The notes beneath the pieces are model-generated. The model was not told the origin of the DNA. It searched no databases and worked only from the letters and a program-made list of their open reading frames with translations. Both the position numbers and the translations under genes were made by a program. From positions 1 through 64,000 of the forward strand of contig JAITNN010000006.1 in assembly GCA_031290395.1 (NCBI GenBank): a DNA stretch of 64,000 nt, given 5' to 3'. Positions 1,448 through 58,469 of the stretch are shown here, in pieces (position 1 is the stretch's first letter; each line of letters starts with the position of its first letter). This DNA comes from Mycoplasmataceae bacterium. GTDB taxonomy: Bacteria; Bacillota_I; Bacilli_A; Mycoplasmatales; Mycoplasmoidaceae.

Positions 1448-3595
1448 TTATGGCTCATCATTGTTTCAATTTCACGAGCCAGGAACAGTATTGCTCACTC
1501 TAGCATCTTGTGATGAAACAGCTATGAGGTCCCACTCTGCTCTCCCTCACCCTAATCCGTTATACTCTGATTTGATTTCCGTTGAGTTTAAATTAGCATT
1601 GTCTATCCAAACACGTGTTGAACAATCCTGAGCATTGGAGTAAGCGACATTGTTCAATGACCACGTTACACCTTGATCAACATTTACACCAACTACCTGG
1701 GCCGATATACCACCAGTGGTTCAACCACCAGAAATTACAATCGACTCTACAGCACCACGATTGTGAATTACAACATTCTTCGTGGCATAAGTGCTTGAGT
1801 TTGCTTTAGAAGTGGCTTTAATAGTAACAGTATAATCTAGACATTCAATCTTCGTATGGTCTCACTGTAATGTTCCCGTTAAATTCTGAGATGCACTTGT
1901 GAAAGAAAAAGCATCTTGGGCGACTGGAGTCACGCTATCTACGGTTCAATCCGTACCAGTTGATGGGTCGACCCCTGCATAAGTGACCGTAAAGTTCGCT
2001 GTACCATCTCTATCGTAGTCAGCTGTCACAGTAGAAGAACCATGAATGGCAGCTGTAGATGTTTTTTGAGCCGTTAAAAGAGTAGATGTATTAATGGTGT
2101 ACCTATCGTCGGCATGCGATGTCGCAATGATTTTTAGCTGAACCGAACAATCTACCGAACCTGTGTAATCTCATGCAAGATCATATTCATCATTGTTTGT
2201 CCCAGAGTTGGTTGCAGTAATTGTTAGACCAGATGGCAATGTTTGATCTCCATTGAGTGTTTCCCAATTCCAATCAACGTCACATGCACTTGAATCAAGC
2301 GTCCCTTGTCCATAAACTTCCGCGATATATGTTGCGCTCCCTGACAAACCTTCTAAATTAGATGGTTGCTGACCGTCCCAATTAATGCCGCTAATAGTTC
2401 CAAAATTTATTTGGGCACTTCCTTGATATTGACCTTGACCAGTTGCCATTACTGATCCGGTGTTTTTATTTGTGAAGTTTAAATCAGCTGTAGTAAACGT
2501 TGTGCCATTTTTATTGTTGATATCTGCAATTAATGTATCATCACCATCATCGGTCACAACTCCAATATTCTTATTAGCAATGATTAAATTGATATCATTA
2601 GAAATTGCAAAGTTAATGACTACGCTACCTTGATATTTATCTTGCCCGGTTATCGTTACTGATGTGGTAGTTTTATTTGTAAAAGTTAGATCACCCGCAA
2701 CAAATGTTGTGCCATTTTTTACATTTATAGAACTAATTAATGTGCTATCTTCATCGTTTGCTATATAGTCAATGTTGGTTGTAGTAATCAGCGTATTGAT
2801 ATCTACAGAGATTTCAAATGTTAGATTCAAAGTACCACGATATTGATTTCGTCCAGTTACTGTCGCTGATGTGGTGTTTACCTCCGTGAAGATTAAATCA
2901 TCTATGGTAAATGTTGTACCATTTCTACGGTTATTGATGTTAATGGTTGCAACCAATGTACTATCATTATTGTTCATTAAATAACCGAGATCCTTTACTG
3001 CAATTAATTTGTCAATGTCGTTAGTTGTTTCAAACGATATATCTATACTGCCTTGGTATTTGCCTTGACCAGTTACCGTTGCCATTGTATCTGTATGGCT
3101 TGTGAAGTCTAAATCATTTGTGACAAATGTTGTACCGTTGTCTATATTTATAACATTGGTTAGTGAACTATCGTCATCGTTTGATATGCAGCCAAGATTA
3201 GTTATTGTAATTAATGTGTTGATGTCAGTAGAAACTGCAAACGTAATGTTTACGTTACCTTTGTATTGATTTTGACCAGCTACTGTCGCTGATGTTGGCG
3301 ATTTATATGTAAAAATTAAATCATCCGTGGTAAATGTTGTACCGTTTTTTAAATTTATTGTATTGATTAATGTATCATCATCATCATTCACTATGTAGCC
3401 CAAATCAATTATAGTAATCATCGTGTTAATGTTAGTTGATGAAGGAATGCGCTGACTAAGACCTACCCCTAAACCAACTACAATGCAACCAGCAGATAGA
3501 GTGCCTAGTAAACTCCACAAAATAATATGTTTCTTTTTATTTTGTGCTTTCTTTGTATTCTCGCTTGGCAATGTATTAATTTCGTTGCATAACAT
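1448..3595 (-). CDS. Repeat-containing cell-surface protein with N-terminal membrane anchor or lipobox
   Basis: 715 aa. A standard-code read would end near 2171; reading TGA as Trp carries it to TAA at 1448-1450. Residues 1-22 are polar and basic (KKAQNKKKH), followed by a hydrophobic segment (IILWSLLGTLSAGCIVVGLG) that could be a signal anchor or a weak lipobox around SAGC. Residues ~56-403 are five imperfect ~69-aa repeats with the pattern INxLIT..LG.I.ND.DDTL..IN..NGTTF...DL.FT....T.ATVTGQ..YQG...I.F. The C-terminal ~310 residues are Thr/Ser-rich with no repeat and no C-terminal anchor. The YxG motif recalls beta-sandwich adhesin modules (inference). It lies backwards inside the transfer operon, so it is probably cargo acquired by the element. 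Confidence 0.75.
2387..3430 (-). repeat. Five tandem ~207-bp coding repeats
   Basis: Five consecutive coding units of 207-216 bp inside the surface protein gene, each beginning near IN(T/L)LIT and ending near (I/L)xF. Units differ at many positions but keep NGTTF, DL.FT and the (T/A)TGQ..Y(Q/K)G core. Such arrays allow size variation by recombination. Confidence 0.7.
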
Positions 3596-22752: not shown

Positions 22753-22812
22753 ATGTTTAATACAAAATTAACTAATGCGGTCGGCTTGAGAGAGAGAGAG
22801 AGAGAGAGCTAG
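22753..22812 (+). other. Leader reading frame carrying the (GA)n switch, currently out of frame with the next gene
   Basis: ATG 22753 opens MFNTKLTNAVGL, then an (Arg-Glu)n stretch encoded by the GA tract, and stops at TAG 22810-22812. Removing one GA unit (or adding two) makes the frame continue as LEYVYNPLNGADHI...LLNNWKN and join the ATG at 22890 of the PAPS-reductase gene with no stop, giving a 431-aa protein. The joined part has protein-like composition and includes a TGA-Trp. In the present length the frame is OFF, or translation starts internally at 22890 or TTG 22872. Confidence 0.7.
22788..22808 (+). repeat. (GA)10 simple sequence repeat
   Basis: 21 nt of uninterrupted GA (10.5 units), the longest dinucleotide tract in the window. 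It is placed just after a start codon in front of a restriction-type operon, the classic layout of a slipped-strand phase-variation switch. Confidence 0.95.
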
Positions 22813-28187: not shown

Positions 28188-29099
28188 TTACTTATGAGTA
28201 AAAATAGGTCCGTTAGCTATATCAATTAAATTTTGCTTTAATTCTTCAAAATTATTTTTAAAGGTATTATCAAAAATAGTGTCTTTTATGTTTTTGTCGA
28301 AATCATCTTTTAAAATTGGGGATTTTGCTATTTCTAGTAATTTTTTCTTAAAATCGTAATCTGATTTAATGACAAATGAATGAGGTATTTGTTTAGATAG
28401 CTTACGTTGGATGTCTTTAAATTTTGTAGGAGTTATCCCAAAATTTGCATTCTTAGTCAACACATAAACATCTACTAAATGACGAGTTGCACCATCAAAA
28501 CGTTTAAATTCTTGTTTGCCATTTTTGAGAAACCCATCCGTTGATTTTATATAGACATCGCATAATGCGCATATTTTGTCTACGAAAATTCTTTCGGGAC
28601 ATTCTACTTTAGTATTGAACGAGACTAACTCATATTTATTCATCTCATCTACTAGTTCGTTTTCTTGCATAAATAAGCCCACCAGAGAAATGATTGGGAC
28701 TATTTGAACATCGCTAGAATCTGGGTTGTATGTAACACTAATGTTTATTCCTGAATTAAATTTACGCCCATCAAGTGGTTGAAATTTAATCGGATCGCAA
28801 TGAACATGCGCTAGGTTTTTATCAAAGTTCAGTTTCTGCTGATCAAGCGTTTGTAAACTTTTATCTACTGCTGTAAAATCTATATCCTTGCTTTCCCTTA
28901 GCGGTAGTTTCTCGTAAACTTTAGCCATAGCTATACCACCTTTAAGTGCTATATTTGTTGTTTGATCAGTTAACTCTTTTATTTTCTTTGTTATGTAATA
29001 ATCTCTTTCAATGTAAAACCTTGGGATTTTGCGACCAAAATAATTGAAACTATCTTCTATCAAGTTACGAAATTCATCTTTATTTTTGTGTAAAATCAT
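28188..29099 (-). CDS. AbiEii-type nucleotidyltransferase toxin
   Basis: 303 aa. The nucleotidyltransferase core is seen as LKGGIAMAKVYEKL followed by RESKDIDFTA (the hGG...DxD pattern) near residue 53, and the AbiEii signature ERIFVDKICALCDVY near residue 167 precedes a helical C-terminus. Type IV AbiEii toxins transfer nucleotides, in related enzymes to tRNA, and stop growth after phage attack. The start overlaps the antitoxin gene by 20 nt in the order AbiEi then AbiEii, as in known pairs. Adjacent and convergent to the MORC-Z1 operon, making a defence island. Confidence 0.85.
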   Translation of the reverse strand: MILHKNKDEFRNLIEDSFNYFGRKIPRFYIERDYYITKKIKELTDQTTNIALKGGIAMAKVYEKLPLRESKDIDFTAVDKSLQTLDQQKLNFDKNLAHVHCDPIKFQPLDGRKFNSGINISVTYNPDSSDVQIVPIISLVGLFMQENELVDEMNKYELVSFNTKVECPERIFVDKICALCDVYIKSTDGFLKNGKQEFKRFDGATRHLVDVYVLTKNANFGITPTKFKDIQRKLSKQIPHSFVIKSDYDFKKKLLEIAKSPILKDDFDKNIKDTIFDNTFKNNFEELKQNLIDIANGPIFTHK

Positions 29100-29724
29100 A
29101 AATTTTTTTCAGTCTTTCTCGGGTTTTAGATGTAAATTGTTCAGCTCAATATCATATGGTATTTTTGTCTAGGAGTTCCAAAAGAGCGTCAATAGATTCG
29201 CGATTATCTCATGCTCCATCATCATACAATCGATTATTGAAATCGAGAAAATCTTGCTCACTTAACGTATATAACAAAGCCAAATAGTTGGCATTATTAC
29301 TATTTATATTAACTTTACTTTTTCTAATGACAAACGTTTCAGTATCGACCTTATATATTTTCTGTCTACACTTCAGATTATTTGTATATACGATATGTTT
29401 AGTGCTGATTTGTGTATCGATATTGTGAGATGTCAAATAATTTTGCCCTACTTCTATTCCTGAAATATGACCATTTCTATCCAATAAATAATTTTGTTTG
29501 ACAAAATTATAGAAATTGAAAGAGTCGTTATAAAACACCTTATTCCCTATTTTATGGTAACTAGCAAAATAATAACATCCATTCCGATATTTTTTAATGT
29601 CACCTATTTTTGATCAGCGAGAAATTAAGCTTTTCAAAACACTTTTCTTTACAAAATCAATGTCTTGTAAGCGAAAAAGATTGTTGGCACCTACGTTATT
29701 AATAATATTTTGTCTTAAACTCAT
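29080..29724 (-). CDS. AbiEi-like antitoxin/regulator
   Basis: 214 aa from ATG 29724 (MSLRQNIINN), spanning four TGA-Trp codons. The N-terminal ~60 residues resemble the winged helix of AbiEi proteins (NNLFRLQDIDFVKKSVLKSLI then KYRNGCYYF), and the rest is an all-alpha/beta domain of the same family. It should block the toxin and repress its own promoter. It overlaps the toxin gene by 20 nt, and its start is 73 nt downstream of smpB. Confidence 0.72.
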
Positions 29725-38144: not shown

Positions 38145-39299
38145 TTATAAGCACGAGTCATGATTTATATCAAATATAGACATTGCATTTGCAATAGCAT
38201 CATCCATGTCAAAATATTTATATTCGGCTATTCTGCCAAGTAGATGAATGTTAGAATATTTTTTAATCTGTTTTTTATATGTGTCATACAAACTTCTATC
38301 TTTCTGATTAGACAAAGAGTAAAAAGGTTCGTTAAACTGTTTTGACATTTCTGAATATTTACCAGGAAATTCTTTACTAATAGTCGTTCAGTTTGACTTT
38401 TGAAAAGTCATCTGTCTGTATTCACAACAGCGAGTCATTTTTGGGTGTGATGGATAATTAATAATTGCCGATTGTTGATATTTGTTTTTACGAAAAGACT
38501 GGAATTTTAGACATAAGCTACGGTAATTTAACCTACCAAATTTGTATTGAAATAATTTATCAATTGAGCCACAATAGAAAATTTTATCATTACATTCAAT
38601 GTTGTCTATATAAACTTTATTATTATTTAACTTCAACGTATCTATGTTACTTTTCAAATGAACAGTAATGTTTTTGTGATTAATAATATTCTTAATAAAT
38701 TTGGTATATCCTTCTTTAGGTAGTCCCTGATATTTATCGTTGGGGAAATATGACTCTTCATAACCTAACGTGATCTGAACTCTATTGATAATATCTCTAG
38801 ATAATGTTTTAATAGGAACACCCCACATTTTTTTAGAATAATTTGCATAAATACGTTTATAGATATATTGAAACATCGTTTGAATTTTTTTATCTTTAAT
38901 ATTTTTTAATTCATCTAATGTAATGGTTTTATTGTTTGGATACAATTTCATTAATTTTTGAATAATATACTTGCTATTCAATGGGAAGATCTGCTCTATA
39001 CTTTTGAAATTTATAGGTAGCGCCACAACTTTATTATCGACCATTGCGTTCACCTTATTGGTGTACTCATTGATCTTACAAAAATGATTAACAAATTTAT
39101 AAACAGCCTCATTACTTGTGTGGAAAATGTGTGGTCCATATTTATGTATTAAAACACCATGACTATCATAGTGGTCATAACAATTTCCACCAATATGATA
39201 TCGTATTTCGTATATATCAACTAGATAATTTTTCTCGGCATACAACCTCGCTAGTGTTGCACCAGAAATTCCACAGCCAAAAATAAAAATTCGTTTCAT
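38145..39299 (-). CDS. glf: UDP-galactopyranose mutase
   Basis: 384 aa. FAD-binding FGCGISGATLARLYAEK at the N-terminus, the mutase motif GGNCYDHY and YGPHIFHT, and Arg-containing GRLNYRSL and GRIAEYKYFDMD near the C-terminus. It converts UDP-Galp to UDP-Galf, the donor for galactofuranose in surface glycans. A TGA-Trp joins the C-terminal part. Last gene of galU-galE-glf, 1 nt after galE. Confidence 0.93.
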
Positions 39300-39300
39300 A

Positions 39301-40257
39301 TTACTTTAAATGATTCTTTAGACGAAATTGATAATCTGTTTTAATCATATCCTTTAATCCGTATTTAGGTCTCCATTTTAGGATAGTGTTCGCTAAGACG
39401 ATAGATGCCAATAATGTAGAAGGGTCGCCAAGACGATTTGGTTTAACATCATATATTAATGCTTTTTTATTAATCTCGCATGCCAATTTAACAACTTCTA
39501 AAACACTATCACCTTTACCAGAACCCAAATTGAATATTCCAGATGAATGTGTTTGCAAATACTTAATGCATAATTTGCAAGCTAACATCAAATCTTCAAC
39601 ATGCACATAATCTCTTACGCATGTGCCATCTTTAGTTTTATATTTGTTTCCAAAAATAATTGGGGGCTTACCATTTATCAATGTTTTATTAACTGCAGTT
39701 ATTAATAATGTTGGATGATCTTTCATCATGCCGTATTTTAATGATTTGCTCGCTCCGGCAGCATTAAAAAAACGCAAAATACAGTATTTAAAATGACTAT
39801 TAATAATTAGTTGTTCTGCTTTTAATTTAGAAGTGCCATATGGATTACATGGCCTTTTGAGAGCGGTTTCTGTAATTGGGATTTGTTTTTGTTTGCCATA
39901 AACAGCGGCAGATGATGCAAAAATAATTTTATTACATCTATATTTATACATACTTTTCAATATATTGTTTGTCCCGTTAACATTTACATTCATATACAAC
40001 TTTGGTTTTAATACAGATTCTGGTACGACCGCCTTAGCAGCAAGGTGTATCACAAGATCAAATTTATATTGTGCAAATAATTTATCTAGTATTTTTTTGT
40101 TAAGAATACTACCTTTAATAAATGTGGCTTTGGGGTTAATTAATTGCTCTTTACCAGTTGATAGGTTATCAAGTACAACAACTTTGTGCGTATCAACAAA
40201 AGACTCGACAATAACTGATCCTATATATCCTGCACCACCAGTGATTAAAATGACCAT
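39301..40257 (-). CDS. galE: UDP-glucose 4-epimerase
   Basis: 318 aa short-chain dehydrogenase-type epimerase. NAD-binding GGAGYIGS at the N-terminus, catalytic Ser/Tyr-x3-Lys region (FASSAAVYG and NPYGTSKLKAE) near residues 115 and 143. It interconverts UDP-Glc and UDP-Gal, feeding glf, and is spaced 1 nt from galU and from glf. Confidence 0.92.
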   Translation of the reverse strand: MVILITGGAGYIGSVIVESFVDTHKVVVLDNLSTGKEQLINPKATFIKGSILNKKILDKLFAQYKFDLVIHLAAKAVVPESVLKPKLYMNVNVNGTNNILKSMYKYRCNKIIFASSAAVYGKQKQIPITETALKRPCNPYGTSKLKAEQLIINSHFKYCILRFFNAAGASKSLKYGMMKDHPTLLITAVNKTLINGKPPIIFGNKYKTKDGTCVRDYVHVEDLMLACKLCIKYLQTHSSGIFNLGSGKGDSVLEVVKLACEINKKALIYDVKPNRLGDPSTLLASIVLANTILKWRPKYGLKDMIKTDYQFRLKNHLK

Positions 40258-40258
40258 A

Positions 40259-41155
40259 TTACCTATTTTCTTTTGCTATTTGCTTAATATAGCTCAAAAT
40301 AGTTCCCTTAATACATTTATCCCTCAAGGCATAATCAATAGTTATTTTCACTAACCCTTCTTTCCGCCCAATATCATAACATTGATTTTTACACTCAAGT
40401 GCATAGACTTTTTGTGATTCCAACAAATCAACAATCGCATCAGTAATTTGCAATTCACCATTGGTGCCTAATTTTGTTCTATTAATACTATGATAAATTT
40501 CTGAAGTGAATATATAACGTCCAACTATTGCTAAATTACTTGGCGCTTTATTAATTGGTGGCTTTTCAACCATAGTGGTTACATTACATAATGTTCGTTT
40601 GGAATCAATAAATTCGCCAGGGGCAATAATGCCATATTTATCAACAATATTTTTATCAACTGTTTCTACCGCAATAGTAGACTGGTGATATTTATCATAT
40701 ACATCCATTAATTGTTTAGTAACAGGCGGATATTTATAACCATATGACATTATATTGTCACCGAGCATTACAACGAACGGATCTCTTCCTGTAAACTTCT
40801 TGCCAAGGCGTATGGCATCACCCAACCCTTTTGGTTCTTTTTGAAATTTAAATCTAATCTTAGCACCCTTACCAATTAACTTTATTCGTTCTAAAAGGTC
40901 TAACCGTTTTTTTTGAACCAAATGCTTTTCTAAATTATGGTTAGTATGGTAATAATCAATTAACGATTGCTTGGTTGAACTAACAATAATGAGAATTTCT
41001 TTGACACCACTATCAATTGCTTCTTGCACTATTAAATCCATACTCGGTACATTCAAAATGGGAATCATCTCTTTGGGAATAGATTTACTCGCAGGTAAAG
41101 ACCTTATTCCCAAACCCGCTGCTGTAATAACGGCTTTTGTGATGCTATTAGTCAT
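40259..41155 (-). CDS. galU: UTP-glucose-1-phosphate uridylyltransferase
   Basis: 298 aa. The nucleotide-binding motif is AAGLGIRSLPASKSIPKEM, where the usual GTR is GIR. Further motifs are KEPKGLGDAI and VVMLGDNIM. It makes UDP-glucose for galE. Its ATG overlaps the stop of the upstream 28-codon leader frame, and it has no good ribosome binding site of its own, so translation is probably coupled. Transcription starts beyond a G10 tract. Confidence 0.92.
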   Translation of the reverse strand: MTNSITKAVITAAGLGIRSLPASKSIPKEMIPILNVPSMDLIVQEAIDSGVKEILIIVSSTKQSLIDYYHTNHNLEKHLVQKKRLDLLERIKLIGKGAKIRFKFQKEPKGLGDAIRLGKKFTGRDPFVVMLGDNIMSYGYKYPPVTKQLMDVYDKYHQSTIAVETVDKNIVDKYGIIAPGEFIDSKRTLCNVTTMVEKPPINKAPSNLAIVGRYIFTSEIYHSINRTKLGTNGELQITDAIVDLLESQKVYALECKNQCYDIGRKEGLVKITIDYALRDKCIKGTILSYIKQIAKENR

Positions 41156-41234
41156 AAAGATTAGCTAAATCTATAGCCCCTATAATGAGCCCAAATGATA
41201 CGATGGGTAGCGGTTTGATGTTGTTACATTTCAT
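41148..41234 (-). CDS. Leader peptide overlapping the start of galU
   Basis: 28 aa: MKCNNIKPLPIVSF then a hydrophobic end. An ideal AAGGAG (41243-41248) lies 8 nt upstream of its ATG, and the TAA (41148-41150) overlaps the galU start region by 8 nt. Start, ribosome binding site and overlap together indicate real translation. It could be a small membrane peptide or a coupling device. Too short for most ORF calls. Confidence 0.6.
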   Translation of the reverse strand: MKCNNIKPLPIVSFGLIIGAIDLANLYD

Positions 41235-41266
41235 GTGTTTCTCTCCTTGAGTTTGTAATAGGTTAA

Positions 41267-41299
41267 ATTATACCCCCCCCCCTCATCATTTCCATGCAA
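41267..41299 (-). promoter_or_regulatory. galU operon promoter with G10 spacer tract
   Basis: On the minus strand TTGCAT (41294-41299) and TATAAT (41267-41272) flank a 21-nt spacer whose last 10 nt are G. The spacer is 4 nt longer than the 17-nt optimum, so tract shortening would be expected to strengthen it. Confidence 0.65.
41273..41282. repeat. Poly-G/C tract of 10
   Basis: Ten consecutive C on the plus strand (G on the coding strand), directly beside the galU -10 box. Confidence 0.95.
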
Positions 41300-43683: not shown

Positions 43684-44823
43684 ATGAAATGCAATATATT
43701 ATTTATTGGGAATAATAAATATACAAAACAAGCTGGCCAAGAAAAATACCATCATTTTTTAATAGGAATACTCAAAAATAATTTTGCATGCAATATTCAT
43801 GAATACCATCATAATTTGCATCCACTAACACCAGATGCTTATAAACCGTATAACGATGTAAAAGAATTTAAATCTAATTTTTTTATAATGCACAAGATAC
43901 CAAAAATAATGCCTACACGCTTGGTGACAAAAAATCTAAAATATAGCATGAAATATTTTAAGAACCATATTGATCTAAAAAAATACGACTTAATAATAGA
44001 TTCTACTCAAGGAACATTTAAATATATTGATAAATGAAAAAATAAATACAACTCAAAACGTTTGTGAATTCAACATCAATCTTCGTCTTTTTTTAATTAC
44101 TCATTTTTGCTTGGTAAATTTGGTAAATTAATTTATAAAATTTTTTCTGTATTTGGCATTAAAACTCATGCATTCTATGCGGAAAATGGTGTTTTCTTTA
44201 CCAATGAAGATGCAGATGATTTCTATAAAAAATTTCATTGTAAATGTAAGCGTTTCATTGCAACGCCATCATTTGACATTATAAAATCGTGGAAAAACAA
44301 TATTGCAAGTAGACAAGATATTGTTTATGTGGGTAGAATTGAACAAATACAGAAAAACATTAAATTCCTCATTAAACTATCAAAATATTTAAATTGCAAT
44401 ATCCATGTCTATGGTATTGGACCACAACACCATTTAGTAGAATCTAATCCTTATAAAATAATTTATCATAAAGGGTTGAGTGCTAGTGATGTGAAGACGA
44501 TTTATCAAAAATATAAATACACGATTTTAGTTTCTAAATTTGAAGGATATGCGTTTGTATTATCAGAATCTTTATCTAATGGTGTCCCAATTATTGTTCG
44601 CGATACTTTTGTTTCTGCAAAATATATTGCTGATAATGGAAACAATGGATTTCTTTTATTGAAAAAATATAATGCCAAGAAATGTGCTAAGTTAATAAAT
44701 GAAATTATTGAAAATGATACTAAATATTTAGATAGATGTAAAAACTGTATTTCTTTTCAAAGTAAAATTGATTTTAAAAAATCATGGATAAAAATATTTA
44801 ATCACTTTTTACAAAATCATTAA
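43684..44823 (+). CDS. GT-B glycosyltransferase (family 4 type)
   Basis: 379 aa from ATG 43684, with GTG 43681 immediately before it as an alternative; GGGAG lies ~17 nt upstream. N-terminal FIGNNKYTKQAGQEKYH; C-terminal Rossmann domain VYVGRIEQIQKNIK followed by the E-x7-E motif EGYAFVLSESLSNG. Likely adds a sugar to a lipid or polysaccharide, with UDP-Gal or UDP-Glc as donor (inference from the neighbouring pathway). It converges with the hydrolase gene and overlaps it by 26 nt. Confidence 0.82.
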
Positions 44824-45673
44824 CTATTTTAAAAAGCTCTTCGTTAGCAGGCTCTTCTGAAATTAGAATATGATATCCGGTACTTAAAAATTTATATTTT
44901 GGACAAGAATGATATTTACTATTTAGTAGATCGATAAATTTTTGTTTAGCTAATTTATCTTCTCCAGATTGGATATATATAAACTTATATTCGTCGGAAT
45001 TCATATGCCGTTCCAATCATTTCCATGATGCTTTCATAGATCACCAAGCCGCAATATTGGATAGGTTGTTTCCCACGGCGTTTGCATGGGATATTTTTGA
45101 GAATCTCTTAAAATCAATATTTGAAGATAATTGTTCACTTGTGTCACCAGGGTGCTTATCTCATGTTTGCATTCCAAACAAGATTGTTGGTACCATTTTA
45201 AAACCAATTAAAATTCTATCCTTTCAAGGTTTATATGATACATCTATTACATATTTAGGCATGTTTCAAAAAACTGCACCACTAACATTATTAAATTTTT
45301 TTAAATAAAAAATAACTATGGAAGACCCTCAGGACTCACCTAGTAAATAGATCTTTTTGCTCGGGAACATATTCCGATAATAATTTACTACATCATTTAA
45401 TTCAACCGCATATTTACTTGGCATTCTCTTAGCTTTGTTTTCGTTATTACCATGCCCCATTTTTTCATAAACAACTAAAAAATGATTATTAAAAAATTCA
45501 TAGTTTAATATCTTACCAAAAGTCAAAGTTGCTCCTATACCGTTAACAAAAATAAAAATTTTAGTGTCATCATTGTCTATTTTTGGTAAAAAATGAACAC
45601 AAGGAATGCCTTTTTTAAAGCGTTTAGTGCTGATTCTAAATTCTACTGTTCTTTCTTTATTAAAAAAAATCAT
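44798..45673 (-). CDS. Alpha/beta hydrolase (lysophospholipase-like)
   Basis: 291 aa; two TGA codons split it under the standard code. Nucleophile elbow LLGESWGSS near residue 115 (GxSxG); oxyanion-type IFVNGIGATLTF near residue 40; GHGNNENK resembles the HG-rich loop of monoacylglycerol lipases. A C-terminal His is in TGYHILISEEP. Probably acts on lipids or esters. Follows the PAP2-like gene by 21 nt, in a minus-strand set of lipid and glycan genes. Confidence 0.8.
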
Positions 45674-45694: not shown

Positions 45695-46637
45695 TTAAAT
45701 CATATTACAAATCACTCAAATAATTATGCCACCAATTGTGAATAGCATTAATACACATGAAAATGTAATGTGAATACCTTTATAAGATGTTTTATTTTGT
45801 AAATTCTTAAAAATAGTTGTCGGCTTGATGTACTGACTATTATTATCATACTCAACACCAAGGATAATATTAAAACCAACAAAGAAAGAAATGATAGGAT
45901 TACTTTTTTTCAATTTTATAATTAAAAAACTAATCAAAGTAGAAATAACAATAAACAAATATGATCCAAGTCCGTCAGCAATGTAATGAGCTCTAATTAA
46001 AAATGTGGATATTCAAGTAAGCAAAGATGCAAAGATCATGAAGCTAAGCAATATTCATTTTTTTATGGTTTTTTTATTCAAACCTGCAAAAAATACTCCG
46101 ACTATGGGAACAGTAGAATTTAATACATGGTAAGAAGGAAATTCTGTAGCAATTGGTTCAGACTTCAAACCGCGTGCATAAACAAGCCGAAAGATTCAAT
46201 CATATCATGGATGGTAATTGTTTATTTCATCGGCCGTAGGGTAAATATTATTATAAGTCGGTACCAATACCACAAATATAAATGTAAACGAATAACATAT
46301 AAAAGAAGTTAGCACCATGAAATAGAAGCTTTTCCTACCTCAAACCAAATAAACAACAAACGGTATAACATACCAATAAACAACACTGAGCATGTATGGA
46401 AAAATCATGACTGGTATCCAAATCTTCCCATCAATTGGGAGAGTGGGATCAAAGGCGACTCATAACGCCCCCCCCCTTGAGCATAGCAATATTAATAATA
46501 TTTGCAATTTTATAGGATATTTGAAATATCGCAGCATAAATAAATGTTGCAAACGATGCTGGAAAAATATTTTGTCAGATTCATAATCATGGTGTCTTGA
46601 TAAAAGAACATTTATGTGGAACAATATATTTTGACAT
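45695..46637 (-). CDS. PAP2-type membrane phosphatase, currently frameshifted at a G9 tract
   Basis: ATG 46637 (MSKYIVPHKCSFIKTPWLW) runs as a membrane protein for ~55 codons into a G9 tract (46468-46476). The downstream part, with no stop back to the tract, is in another frame and ends at TAA 45695-45697. With 8 (or 11) G the two halves join into one 313-aa protein; with 9 G, translation ends ~40 codons after the tract. PAP2 features in the second half: ATEFPSYHVLNST (PSxH) near residue 170 and TFLIRAHYIADGLGS near residue 225, with ~6 helices. It may dephosphorylate a lipid carrier. It starts 7 nt after the GT2 gene. Confidence 0.75.
46468..46476. repeat. Poly-G/C tract of 9 inside the PAP2-like gene
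   Basis: Nine C on the plus strand, exactly at the point where the reading frame of the minus-strand gene changes. Confidence 0.95.
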
Positions 46638-46644
46638 AAGTAAA

Positions 46645-47709
46645 TTATATTGCCTGTTGTTTCGCTTTGCTTTTTTTAAAAGTATATTTTAATTGCTTTA
46701 AATATCCAGATGCAGCGATGCGAGGAGCGATTTTATTTATCACATGAATAAGAGGATAACTATTATTTGTCATCATTAATTTATATAATGAGCTTAATTT
46801 CAATCTAATCGCTCAAGGATAATGAATACTTTTAAAATGTGAAATAACCATTTGATACTGCTTCTGCTTTTGTCAGAAATAGAGTTGTTCATCGTTCGAA
46901 ATCACTAGTACGATAAGATATAGCATAGATTTTACAATTCCAACTAATGTTTGCAAACGTTTACCGCGAAAATCATTAATCGAAAATTCTAGTAGATAAT
47001 AAAGAATATGTTTTAATTTTGCAACGCTCTTAAACATATTAGCCCAAGACATTGACTGATCTTTAGTCCCGATCTTATATTCATATAACACTATATTTGA
47101 AGGCATTATTGCAATAGTTTTAGAATGCATTACTGTTTGGAAAATAAGTATATTATCTGTAAACAATATTTTTAATGGAAGTGGTTTAATTTTCTTGTTC
47201 AAAAACGAAGTGTTCCATGTAAAGGCATGTACAGTCAACAATTTAATTCACTTTTTATCATCTAGACTAGAAATAATTAATCTATTCTTATTATTATATT
47301 TTCGCATTATTTTATTATTTGTTGTGCCATTTTTAAAAAAGTAATTTGTAACAACGGCATCTACTTTTTTTGTGGATAATGTAATTAAATTTTTAATATA
47401 TTTACCAAAATCGCTAATGTTAACAGTATCATCACTATCCAAAACTTTAACAAACTTTGTCTTGACATTTTTAATCGCAAAATTTATAACGCCACCTCAA
47501 CCAGTATTACGTTGCCTAACACAAGTAATCACACTTGAATAATTGATTAATCAATTTTTAATGTGTGATTTTAGGCTTGATTTGCTACCATCATCAACTA
47601 TTAAAACATTGAAATAACTTTTGTAGGTATAGTCTAATGATGCAAGTGCATCGTTAATAGTTTTTTCGGAGTTATACGCAGGAATTACGATGGTTAATAA
47701 TTTTGACAT
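46645..47709 (-). CDS. GT2-type glycosyltransferase
   Basis: 354 aa from ATG 47709 to TAA 46645-46647. Family 2 GT-A features: TIVIPAYNSEKTINDAL at the N-terminus, LIVDDGSKSS, NTGWGGVINFAIK and the metal-binding LDSDDTVNI near residue 90. It probably makes a glycolipid or capsule linkage. First gene of a minus-strand set with the PAP2-like and hydrolase genes; a G9 tract lies in its promoter region. Three or more TGA-Trp codons. Confidence 0.83.
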
Positions 47710-47726: not shown

Positions 47727-47758
47727 ATTGTAAGTGATTTAACCCCCCCCCATTACAA
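47727..47758 (-). promoter_or_regulatory. Possible GT2 gene promoter containing a G9 tract
   Basis: On the minus strand TTGTAA (47753-47758) and TACAAT (47727-47732) have a 20-nt spacer that includes nine G (47743-47751). Layout resembles the galU promoter; the boxes are imperfect. Confidence 0.45.
47743..47751. repeat. Poly-G/C tract of 9 upstream of the GT2 gene
   Basis: Nine C on the plus strand between the stop of the flippase gene and the start of the GT2 gene. Confidence 0.95.
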
Positions 47759-47759
47759 A

Positions 47760-48944
47760 TTATTTGATTAGTTTATTTTTCTTGCGCTGTTTTATTTGGA
47801 TGCCCATTAATGTTACAAAGCCAAATAGTCCGATAGCTGCTGGGATGTATTGAGTAAATGTTCTTCAAACCATGACTGAATTATTGATATAGGTGTCAAC
47901 ATGACCTTTACCAACACTAATATCTGCTAGTCCCGACTTGAAAAATACAGTTAATATATATTCCATTGTACCTTCACCTCCTGGCAAAGGGAAAAATCTA
48001 TTAGCAGTACATCCAACATTGACAAGATTAAATAATTTTCAAACATCAAACGTTGTTCCATCTCCGAATTCATTTTTCAAAAACTCAAAAGCAATAATTA
48101 TTGTGAAATATAAGAATACTTCATTCACTAAAACAAGTGCAAGCACCAATATCGTAATTTTTCATTCTCTAAAAAATTCCAAAAAATTGTGTTGTAAAGT
48201 GGCATCCACTATGTATGTTTTATATGTTTGCGCTTTAGTATGGTATTTCATATGCAAAAGTTGTTTTGTGCGATTAAAAATTCTTGACAACAAATAATGT
48301 AATCTTCTCATGAAGCCAAAAATAAACATCACTGCTAATCCAATAAAATCAATAGCGATCCCAATTATCATAAAAATTAAAACTATCAAACCGTCATGTC
48401 CAGATGTTCCAGGAAATGTTAATAGTGAATTTGAATGGATACAAATTCAAATAAATGACGGCATCGTAATAATAATTTGCATCACTTCTCATAAAAGAGC
48501 ATTATTTGCCACTAGTGCAGATGCTTTGGCCGTAGATAACCCACATGTTTTAAGTCAAAATATTGTATATGGATCACTCACGAAATTAGCTGGTGTTACG
48601 GCAATTAAAAATGAACGCGTTAAGGTGTACAAAAACATATTTCAAAATTTTACTTTTATATTGAGTTTCCCCAGCCTAATGGTAAGCGTAAAAACATTGA
48701 TAAAAAAGTTTCATATCACAAAAGTTAAAAATAAAATAAATCATAGTCAACCTAAAGAAGAAATAAATCCAACTGCGATGCTTCGAAATAACAAATCTCA
48801 ATGAATATCTAATATATATATTAAGGTTAGCACAACTAAAACGATTGATGCAACCGTAGTAATACTAATCAGTATATAGTTACGTTTATTTCAAAAAGAC
48901 TTGCCTGAACTTTGGCTATCAATATTTAAGTTATTACTAGACAT
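47760..48944 (-). CDS. Lysylphosphatidylglycerol synthase/flippase-type (UPF0104) membrane protein
   Basis: 394 aa from ATG 48944 to TAA 47760-47762, with several TGA-Trp codons. Eight or more hydrophobic helices. The family hallmark is visible as RSFLIAVTPANFVSDPYTIFWLK near residue 105 and FFPLPGGEGTMEYIL near residue 320. Members translocate or modify lipids; no synthetase domain is present, so a flippase-like role is the cautious reading. It lies directly upstream of the GT2 gene. Confidence 0.8.
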
Positions 48945-51783: not shown

Positions 51784-53712
51784 TTAATGTTTAAGCGTTT
51801 GACTTGGTGCATCTGATTTATATTCACCTTTAGTAATTATGTCTTTCATATTATTCTTAATAATATCAGCCTCTGTTCCAAAGACTGCATAGACAGATTG
51901 TGGTGAAGGATGAATAATTCCTAAAGCTCCCAATTCTTTTAGTCTATCTCCATTAACAAGCTTTTTATCTTTTACTTGAATGCGTAATTTTGTTAAGCAT
52001 GCATCAATGTTAAGAATGTTATCAGGACCACCATACGCTTTAATTACACTCATAGATTTATCTCTAATTGATGTTGCTTTAGACTCTGAAGTATTTCCAA
52101 CTCCGCTTTGTTTTTTAACTCAATCGGCTTTATTAAATAATTTGGTTGCACCATTTCGTCCTGGGGTTGGTAAATTTCATTTTTTAATGGCTCATATAAA
52201 GACCACTCAATAAATTGGGAAATAAATAACCGATAGCACCAGCAATACCCAGCAATGGGCACCACCACCTCTTGCATCTGTTAACACTCCATAAATTACA
52301 AAATCAATAATCCCCTGTGAGAATGAAAACGTAACATGCGGACCAACAACTGGTGCATAAAACATTAAGATCGTGGTAATCATGGCTGCTAATCCTGCCA
52401 TGATTGTATGAAATACTCAGAAGAGCATTGGAGCGAGAAAAATAAATGTGAATTCAATTGATTCACTTGCACCAGTTAATGAACTAACGACAGCGCCAGG
52501 AATTACAATTGACCCACAAAGTTTACGAGAGTCACCTTTAGGGCAAGCAAACAACATACCGAGCGCAGCTCCTGACAATCCAAACATACCAAACACGTAA
52601 GCGAAATTAGTATATTGTCCTGGAGCTAATATAGCATGATCAGACATTTGATGCACCGCATCGTATGAATTAATAACATCTTGGATCGTAATTACTTGAC
52701 CGAGATATTGATTTTTCCCAACGATACTTGTTAAAAAAATTTGAATATTAATATCACCTGTGATCTTTAAGGCATCACTATTGCCAGCTAATTGGGCATA
52801 TGTGTAACCTGTGTCGTATAGATTTACGTCATTAATAACAATAGGCGTTGTGCCATTATTAACTGTGGAATAAAAATGTTCAGCTAAATCAAATGTTCCA
52901 CCAACGGATGAAAACCATAAAGTAGTGTTTAAAACGTGGTGTAATCCAAATGGCATCAATACTCGATTAACAACTCCATAGATAAAAGCAGTACCCCCCC
53001 CATAGCGGTTGCCATATGAAAAACCATAACCTAAATAATATAATCCAGTTCCGATAAGTGGCCAAATCATTGCGAACAACATTCCAAGAACACAAGCTGC
53101 ACCGAAAGTAATGATTGGAATAAATCTAACACCACTAAAAAATCCTAACACTTTTGGCAATTGAATATTTTTAAATCTATTGTATAAAAATGCAACTAAA
53201 GCACCAACAATGATGCCCCCAAACACCGACGTTGATAGGGCGCGTATGCCAATAATATCCGTAAATATGGAATCAAACTTTACACTATCAAAGTGATACC
53301 ATAAAAAATCATGATACCCATCAGGCCGGTCTATAACTAAAGCAGTTTGAAATATACAAAACACCGAATAACCAACAACAGCGCTAAGCCCAGCCGTCCC
53401 GGAATCATTAGTAAATGTTATAGCTATTGCTATTGCAAATAATAATGGCAAAATAGCAAAGATAACATTACCTGGCATTTGCAGCATATGGCCAATAATA
53501 TGACCAGCATCTGATGTTGTTTGAGAGGCAATTGTTGTTCCAACACCCAAAGCCAATCCAGCTATCGGCAACATTGCAATTGGTAACATTAAACCACGCG
53601 ATAATTTAGCAATGGCTTCTTTAACTTTGCCATTACCTTTTTTTTCTTTTTTAAGTAGTATCGGAACTTCTCCAAATGCACGTTGTTTATTCATTTGCAT
53701 TTTATTCATCAT
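51784..53712 (-). CDS. nagE: PTS permease EIICB, N-acetylglucosamine/glucose type
   Basis: 642 aa; reading TGA as Trp joins an apparent IIC and an apparent IIB into one protein with no frameshift. The EIIC domain (~residues 30-465) has ~10 helices, KLSRGLMLPIAMLPIAGLALG, and the GHxxxN-type GLHHVLNTTLWF motif. The EIIB domain at the C-terminus has the phospho-accepting Cys in NIDACLTKLRIQV. It imports and phosphorylates the sugar; EIIA is supplied elsewhere. GlcNAc is inferred from the neighbouring nagA and nagB. Start may be ATG 53712, 53709 or 53700. The coding sequence contains a G8 tract. Confidence 0.9.
52994..53001. repeat. Poly-G/C tract of 8 inside the PTS gene
   Basis: Eight C on the plus strand, encoding GGG in RYGGGTAF of the permease. 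The frame is intact at this length. Confidence 0.9.
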
Positions 53713-57406: not shown

Positions 57407-57517
57407 ATGAGAACATCAATGATTAATATCAACAAACCTATATATATATATATATGACAAAGTAATAACTTAGTTAGTTCATCAATGGGAGGAATCAACT
57501 CTGCCTTTTTAGGTTAG
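57407..57517 (+). other. Short reading frame with a (TA)8 tract, ending inside a terminator hairpin
   Basis: 36 codons (MRTSMININKPIYIYIWQ..., TGA = Trp) starting 9 nt after fusA with AGGAA upstream. Its stop codon (57515-57517) lies in the hairpin below, and the TA tract covers 57439-57455. This could be a leader with attenuation of the methyltransferase operon, or just spacer. Confidence 0.3.
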
Positions 57518-57533: not shown

Positions 57534-58469
57534 ATGGATGCATTGAGTCCTAACAAAAGTATTGATAATTTACTACAAAAATTAAAAGGAAATAAAATTG
57601 ATTACAAAAGATATTTAGGTGCCCCCATTCGTTATGGTGGTGGTAAATCACTTGCTGTTGGGTACATAATAGAAAGAATTCCACGAAACATTAAAAAAAT
57701 AGTGAGTCCATTCGTCGGTGGTGGTTCTGTAGAGTTTGCTTTAAATGAATGTGGAATTAATGTAATTTGTTATGACATTTTTGATAAATTAATAAACTTT
57801 TTCAATGTTCTAAAGAATGAAAAAGTCAAACTAATTAAGACATTGAAAACCTTTAATGCATCAAAACAAACATTCAACAATATACGAAAAGAATTGTGAG
57901 ATGATTACAAGCAAACAAAATTCATTAAAAATAATATTGAATTGGCCTCAAAATATTTTTACAATCATAATTTAAGTTATGGACCATCTTATTTAGGATG
58001 ACCATCATCAAACTATTTAAATAATAATAAAAAATATCAAAAGATGATTGATAAGCTTAGTAAATATGACTTAGAACGCATGATTTTTAAGTGTGAACCA
58101 TTTGAAAATGTTTTACCAAAACATGTTAAAGATTTTATGTACTTAGACCCGCCTTATTTTTTAGGAGGTACAAGTAAAATGTTCGCTGGAATTTACCCAA
58201 TGAGAAATTCTCCTCATCATCATAAAGATTTTGATCATAAACTGCTATCAAATCTATTGAGACAACATGCTGGGGGGTTTTTACTATCTTACAACGATTG
58301 TAAAGAGATTCGTGACCTATATAAAGGTTTTGAAATTGTTGAATTGCATTGACAATACACTATGGGGCAAGGAGAAACTAGAATAGGGAAAAACCGCGCA
58401 AAGAGAAATTACGATAACACGAACACGAAACAATCGCATGAAATATTAATAATAGGTGGCAAAAGATAA
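57534..58469 (+). CDS. Dam-class (D12) DNA N6-adenine methyltransferase
   Basis: 311 aa, ATG 57534, to TAA 58467-58469, with four TGA-Trp codons. Motif X GAPIRYGGGKSLA, motif I IVSPFVGGGSVEFAL and motif IV YLDPPYFLGG identify the D12/alpha class that methylates adenine N6. The target sequence cannot be read from the protein. The next gene starts in its TAATG stop, as in restriction-modification pairs. Confidence 0.88.

Follow-up and report, generated by a model that had tools for sequence, protein, structure and literature searches.

The window analyzed here, bases 1-64,000 of contig 16 in a 1.01 Mb draft genome of 21 contigs (G000), contains a compact operon on the minus strand. Its first gene (47760-48944) encodes a membrane protein with the flippase-like transmembrane region of lysylphosphatidylglycerol synthases (Pfam PF03706, E = 8.8e-14). 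It is followed by a GT2 glycosyltransferase gene (46645-47709; PF00535, E = 2.8e-20), a PAP2-like gene and, in last position, a gene for an alpha/beta hydrolase (Hydrolase_4; 44798-45673; PF12146, E = 1.4e-10). An earlier, sequence-only reading of this DNA had placed the PAP2-like gene between a GT2 glycosyltransferase and an alpha/beta hydrolase, and the Pfam matches identify both neighbors as such. Since the genes in the window are open only when TGA is read as tryptophan, the organism is a mollicute using genetic code 4. Together with the small genome and the undetected MutS (see below), this code suggests a member of the Mycoplasmatales. Under table 11, the PAP2 region is shredded into fragments; the sequence-only reading must therefore have used code 4 as well, and the whole neighborhood agrees with this choice.

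The PAP2-like gene is divided by a run of nine G on the minus strand (46468-46476; C9 on the plus strand), at which an upstream and a downstream frame meet. The upstream frame (46477-46637, minus strand) starts at ATG 46637, 7 nt past the stop of the GT2 gene, a tight spacing that is expected in an operon of this kind, and encodes an N-terminal membrane segment. With TGA as tryptophan, the frame from this ATG passes the G9 and continues into unrelated sequence, reaching a length of 100 codons, and the downstream frame (45695-46467, minus strand) shows no break until its stop at 45695. That the two frames join exactly at nine G, as had been proposed, is thus borne out under code 4. The accompanying arithmetic is also correct: a tract length that brings both halves into the same frame yields one protein of 313 codons. 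Codon usage agrees with the chosen frames on both sides, with scores of +2.2 (against -10 and -20 for the other two frames) in the upstream part and -10 (against -87 and -110) in the downstream part.

We found that only the downstream frame matches the PAP2_3 family (PF14378), at 28.5 bits compared to a curated Pfam cut-off of 27, which confirms the suggested PAP2-like nature of the product. A profile of relatives gives a match to this frame that begins just past the tract (position 71 of 330), with the rest of the frame unmatched. A sequence search of the PDB with the PAP2 domain returned no usable match, that is, no close solved structure by sequence. In an alignment of 13 sequences, P112, S113, H115, H162 and D166 are invariant, and the motifs C2 (PSxH, here PSYH) and C3 (HxxxD, in the form HYxxD, here HYIAD) are kept. 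All residues invariant in relatives are retained in the downstream frame, and the tract is therefore the sole visible lesion; the gene is otherwise intact, as previously stated, and its frames are open on either side of the tract. A profile search restricted to the 56 upstream residues gave no significant match, their conservation being too poor to score. They form a single hydrophobic segment of ~30 residues and were assigned to the PAP2 gene because of their position, codon usage and hydrophobicity. At the position of the tract, relatives carry a loop rich in glycine that follows their first membrane helix, as in FKDGGGFFVWNLPID of L022, and so the tract probably grew out of glycine codons. 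The substrate of the enzyme is predicted to be a lipid or glycolipid. The OFF form of the gene is known from one assembly.

A further G9 tract of uncertain role (47743-47751, minus strand) is located 5' of the GT2 gene. An ATG that lies 7 nt past the preceding stop abuts this tract, and at the present tract length its frame reaches a stop within 5 codons. An alternative ATG at 47709, 33 nt beyond the first, could still serve as the start. As the tract-abutting ATG opens a dead frame, the GT2 gene may likewise be switched or attenuated by its own G9. Neither this tract nor the G10 tract of the galU-galE-glf promoter described below had been listed in the sequence-only reading.

The window also holds two dinucleotide repeats. 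A PAPS-reductase-like gene carries a (GA)10 repeat (22788-22807) at its 5' end; HATPase and Z1-helicase genes come next (to 28137), and the arrangement is defense-like. The ATG-led frame of the PAPS-reductase-like gene stops just past the repeat, and its long frame is devoid of an upstream start; the repeat probably represents a contingency locus of a second type. An AbiEi/AbiEii-like pair (28188-29724) adjoins this cassette. Additionally, (TA)8 (57439-57454) is found ~80 nt upstream of a gene for a D12-class DNA adenine methyltransferase (57534-58469), of which it is a possible promoter-type switch.

Long G runs are far more abundant in this genome than the shorter ones predict. Genome-wide, 9, 26, 11 and 3 runs have an exact length of 7, 8, 9 and 10 G, respectively, compared to ~3, ~0.4, ~0.06 and ~0.008 expected from the decay of shorter runs. 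The number of G8-G10 tracts thus amounts to 40, where homopolymer decay predicts less than one. Beyond the window, sequence of G000 was read in stretches surrounding these tracts. Within the window, each additional base up to length 6 lowers the number of G/C runs about seven-fold, after which runs of 8, 9, 9 and 10 appear. These four tracts comprise 8 overlapping G8 windows, whereas dinucleotide-shuffled sequence of 64 kb is expected to contain 0.09. The G8 among them (52994-53001, minus strand) lies inside a PTS enzyme II gene, where it is read in frame (YGGGTA) and served as an in-frame control.

The position of many tracts relates them to transcription. Directly 5' of a -10 box, mostly in front of surface-protein genes, we found 15 of the 40 tracts, whereas a reversed-pattern control gave 0. 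Fourteen are located at most 4 nt 5' of TATAAT (15 when TATACT is included), compared to 0.11 expected. All 15 come to within one base of their -10 box. The related genome G019 has 8 such tract-plus-TATAAT promoters and none in the control. A -35 box can be read for two promoter types; for galU and a small number of other tracts it is unclear. Promoters with a TTGACY -35 show a spacing of 18 in five of six cases and of 20 in one, despite varying tract and flank lengths; in the second, duplicated type with a TTCAAA -35, the spacing is 17-19 in five promoters with tracts of G8, G9 or G10. In both types the repeat sits between -35 and -10, hence tract length sets the spacing, by which these promoters would be turned ON or OFF. 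The genes behind the tract promoters encode surface proteins with a common leader and BspA-type leucine-rich repeats; others show weaker carbohydrate-binding and Ig-like matches. One surface-protein gene combines a promoter-region G9 with a G8 read in frame within the signal region (L019:3171-3178 and 3283-3291), an arrangement that is also present in G019 (L083, L084). Four further genomes of the same genus (G002, G009, G024, G028) contain many G9 tracts, some more than G000, of which few or none lie 5' of TATAAT. Poly-G usage thus seems to vary by species.

One promoter tract of the window precedes genes for sugar-nucleotide supply. The G10 at 41273-41282 (minus strand) is located immediately 5' of a TATAAT (41267-41272) and is putatively the phase-variable element of a galU-galE-glf operon (38145-41155, minus strand), which encodes a nucleotidyl transferase (PF00483), an epimerase (PF01370) and a UDP-galactopyranose mutase (PF03275). 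Between promoter and galU lies a leader ORF of 28 codons (41151-41234, minus strand) with a strong Shine-Dalgarno sequence, which resembles a signal-peptide remnant and whose end overlaps the galU start. Homology links this leader to the promoter cassette of a surface protein at C16:134252 (score of 71, compared to 38 for the best of 500 shuffles). By this homology, promoter and leader (41151-41282) look like they were captured from a surface-protein poly-G cassette.

Among the coding tracts, 13 are in frame and 4 are out of frame. The latter affect the PAP2 gene of the window, a second PAP2 gene with a G8 at the same protein loop (C5:25232), a gene at C16:156932 and an exported protein (C16:197589). 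The product of the C16:156932 gene resembles PI-PLC-like enzymes by eye, neither piece being significant in Pfam. A G9 (L015:3433-3441) divides a gene resembling PI-PLC-like enzymes into two open frames. In-frame tracts occur in a PAP2-superfamily gene (C5:65646), a GDPD, two PI-PLC-X-like proteins and a GH16, so that lipid and surface enzymes recur as carriers. We rejected the notion that every coding G8 is a switch, as 13 coding tracts are in frame and some of these lie at glycine-rich motifs where constraint suffices as an explanation; most coding G8 tracts may reflect coding constraint rather than switching.

PAP2 genes appear to be targeted repeatedly. G000 has six PAP2_3 matches, including a tract-free paralogue on C21. 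Across the 17 genomes that have PAP2 genes and for which tract lists are complete, an internal tract of G8 or longer was found in 5 of 41 PAP2_3-matching genes compared to 0.68 expected (p = 0.0007; p = 0.005 without the window gene), a modest enrichment calculated from approximate gene lengths and rounded genome sizes. In G024, a C9 just past the start throws the ATG of a conserved PAP2 orthologue out of frame. The sister species G026 and G027 carry an orthologous PAP2 gene with a G7 and a G9, respectively, near the C-terminus (L136:1730-1736, L137:859-867). Both lengths are out of frame, the flanks are conserved and the frames are open on either side; the orthologue in G035 is intact and has no tract. 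As the tract length differs at one site with the frames kept, such tracts change length while the gene persists. Length differences between copies are hence seen at sites other than the window tract, namely at this orthologous PAP2 tract (G7/G9) and in the duplicated promoters (G10/G9/G8).

These findings point to the G9 of the window as a simple-sequence contingency locus subject to slipped-strand phase variation, with the PAP2 gene OFF in the assembly, a reading to which we assign a probability of roughly 80%. DNA polymerase would slip on the G run and change the tract by one base per event. A MutS domain was not found in G000 and 20 relatives by a search that was positive in 11 of 14 control genomes, which is why slippage should stay uncorrected; in the proposed mechanism, the slipped bases would persist because MutS-type mismatch repair would be absent from the cell. 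The present length puts start and body of the PAP2_3 membrane phosphatase/phosphotransferase in different frames (OFF), and other lengths would restore the full-length protein. We infer that the tract switches length within a population. The ~40 poly-G tracts, ~15 in -35/-10 spacers of surface-protein genes and galU-galE-glf and others in coding sequence for envelope-lipid and surface functions, would together randomize surface composition among sister cells. Most likely, the PAP2 tract belongs to this on/off set varying the cell surface at random.

Phase variation is strongly favored over gene decay or an assembly error. This preference is based on the excess of runs of 8-10 G, their placement 5' of -10 boxes, the break of a second PAP2 gene in this loop, the length difference of orthologous tracts between sister species and the undetected MutS. 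Homopolymers are the commonest site of indel errors and the genome is a fragmented draft of 21 contigs, so that a miscounted tract in a PAP2 gene that is constantly ON has to be considered. We regard this as unlikely, since base-caller error cannot yield a 60-fold excess of 8-10 G runs 5' of -10 boxes. Moreover, the G8 tracts in constrained genes (PTS enzyme II, a threonine-deaminase-like protein) read in frame, and a tract-broken PAP2 gene recurs in the independently assembled G024, G026 and G027.

The same recurrence bears on a pseudogene, in which a redundant PAP2 copy would have been lost through a fixed frameshift. Among six PAP2_3 matches, the tract-free C21 paralogue could indeed take over the function. 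However, the gene has no second lesion, both frames being open and every invariant residue retained, and the break falls exactly on a hypermutable tract, as it does in the second paralogue and three relatives; we therefore consider decay very unlikely. A different possibility is that some full-length PAP2 protein is made by programmed frameshifting on the G run, either ribosomal or transcriptional. Long homopolymers promote slippage of polymerases and ribosomes, and the frames are conserved on both sides of the tract. Nevertheless, frameshifting leaves the promoter tracts unexplained, as well as the G7/G9 difference between the sister species, where neither length is in frame. As a full account it is improbable, but it may add a low basal level of PAP2 protein to slipped-strand phase variation.

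Taken further, and only tentatively, one mollicute lineage would possess a mobile promoter cassette composed of a poly-G tract, a -10, a leader and a signal-peptide start. Copies of it would have come to precede many surface genes, and galU-galE-glf would have captured it, while PAP2_3 lipid enzymes acquired poly-G repeatedly and at differing positions. The same slippage would then randomize the surface proteins as well as the makeup of glycan precursors and membrane lipids. Slipped-strand phase variation at these loci would extend poly-G contingency control in a wall-less bacterium from surface proteins to membrane-lipid enzymes and, via the promoter cassette, to glycan precursor supply. PAP2 lipid enzymes might provide a marker class for surface variation, and existing metagenomic reads offer a direct test of such variation in uncultured host-associated mollicutes. 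A literature search, with many journals outside its reach, found no mollicute poly-G promoter-spacer system and no phase-variable PAP2 enzyme; as far as it reached, neither the promoter cassette nor the recurrence of PAP2 genes as targets has been described.

Related switches are known from other mycoplasmas. In the Vlp promoters of Mycoplasma hyorhinis, a poly-A homopolymer adjoins the -10 box of surface lipoprotein genes; here, in contrast, the repeat is poly-G and occurs in ~15 dispersed promoters, one of which serves the supply of UDP-galactose and galactofuranose. Neisseria and Campylobacter likewise have poly-G contingency loci, located in the promoters or within the coding sequence of genes for surface and glycan functions (e.g. 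PMC5084427, PMC8437040). These bacteria are unrelated to the present lineage. To our knowledge, no PAP2_3 lipid enzyme is a repeated target among their loci. Homopolymer frameshift switching in mycoplasmas is already established by vaa of M. hominis and p78 of M. fermentans (cited in PMC2831843). In these surface genes, as in the PAP2 gene, the homopolymer occupies the 5' part, and a change by one base switches the frame. They differ in that poly-A acts on a surface lipoprotein or adhesin, compared to poly-G in a membrane lipid enzyme here. A further parallel is another mollicute genome assembled from a metagenome with simple-repeat switching, that of Candidatus Mycoplasma girerdii, in which length variants of such repeats switch BspA-like surface proteins ON/OFF in vivo and a mod gene, OFF in the reference, is under the control of a G(8) tract (PMC5476646). 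There, mostly dinucleotide repeats in coding sequence are involved, with proof at the read level (PMC5476646), whereas the system described here, known from the assembly alone, uses poly-G, often in promoter spacers, and additionally includes lipid-enzyme genes.
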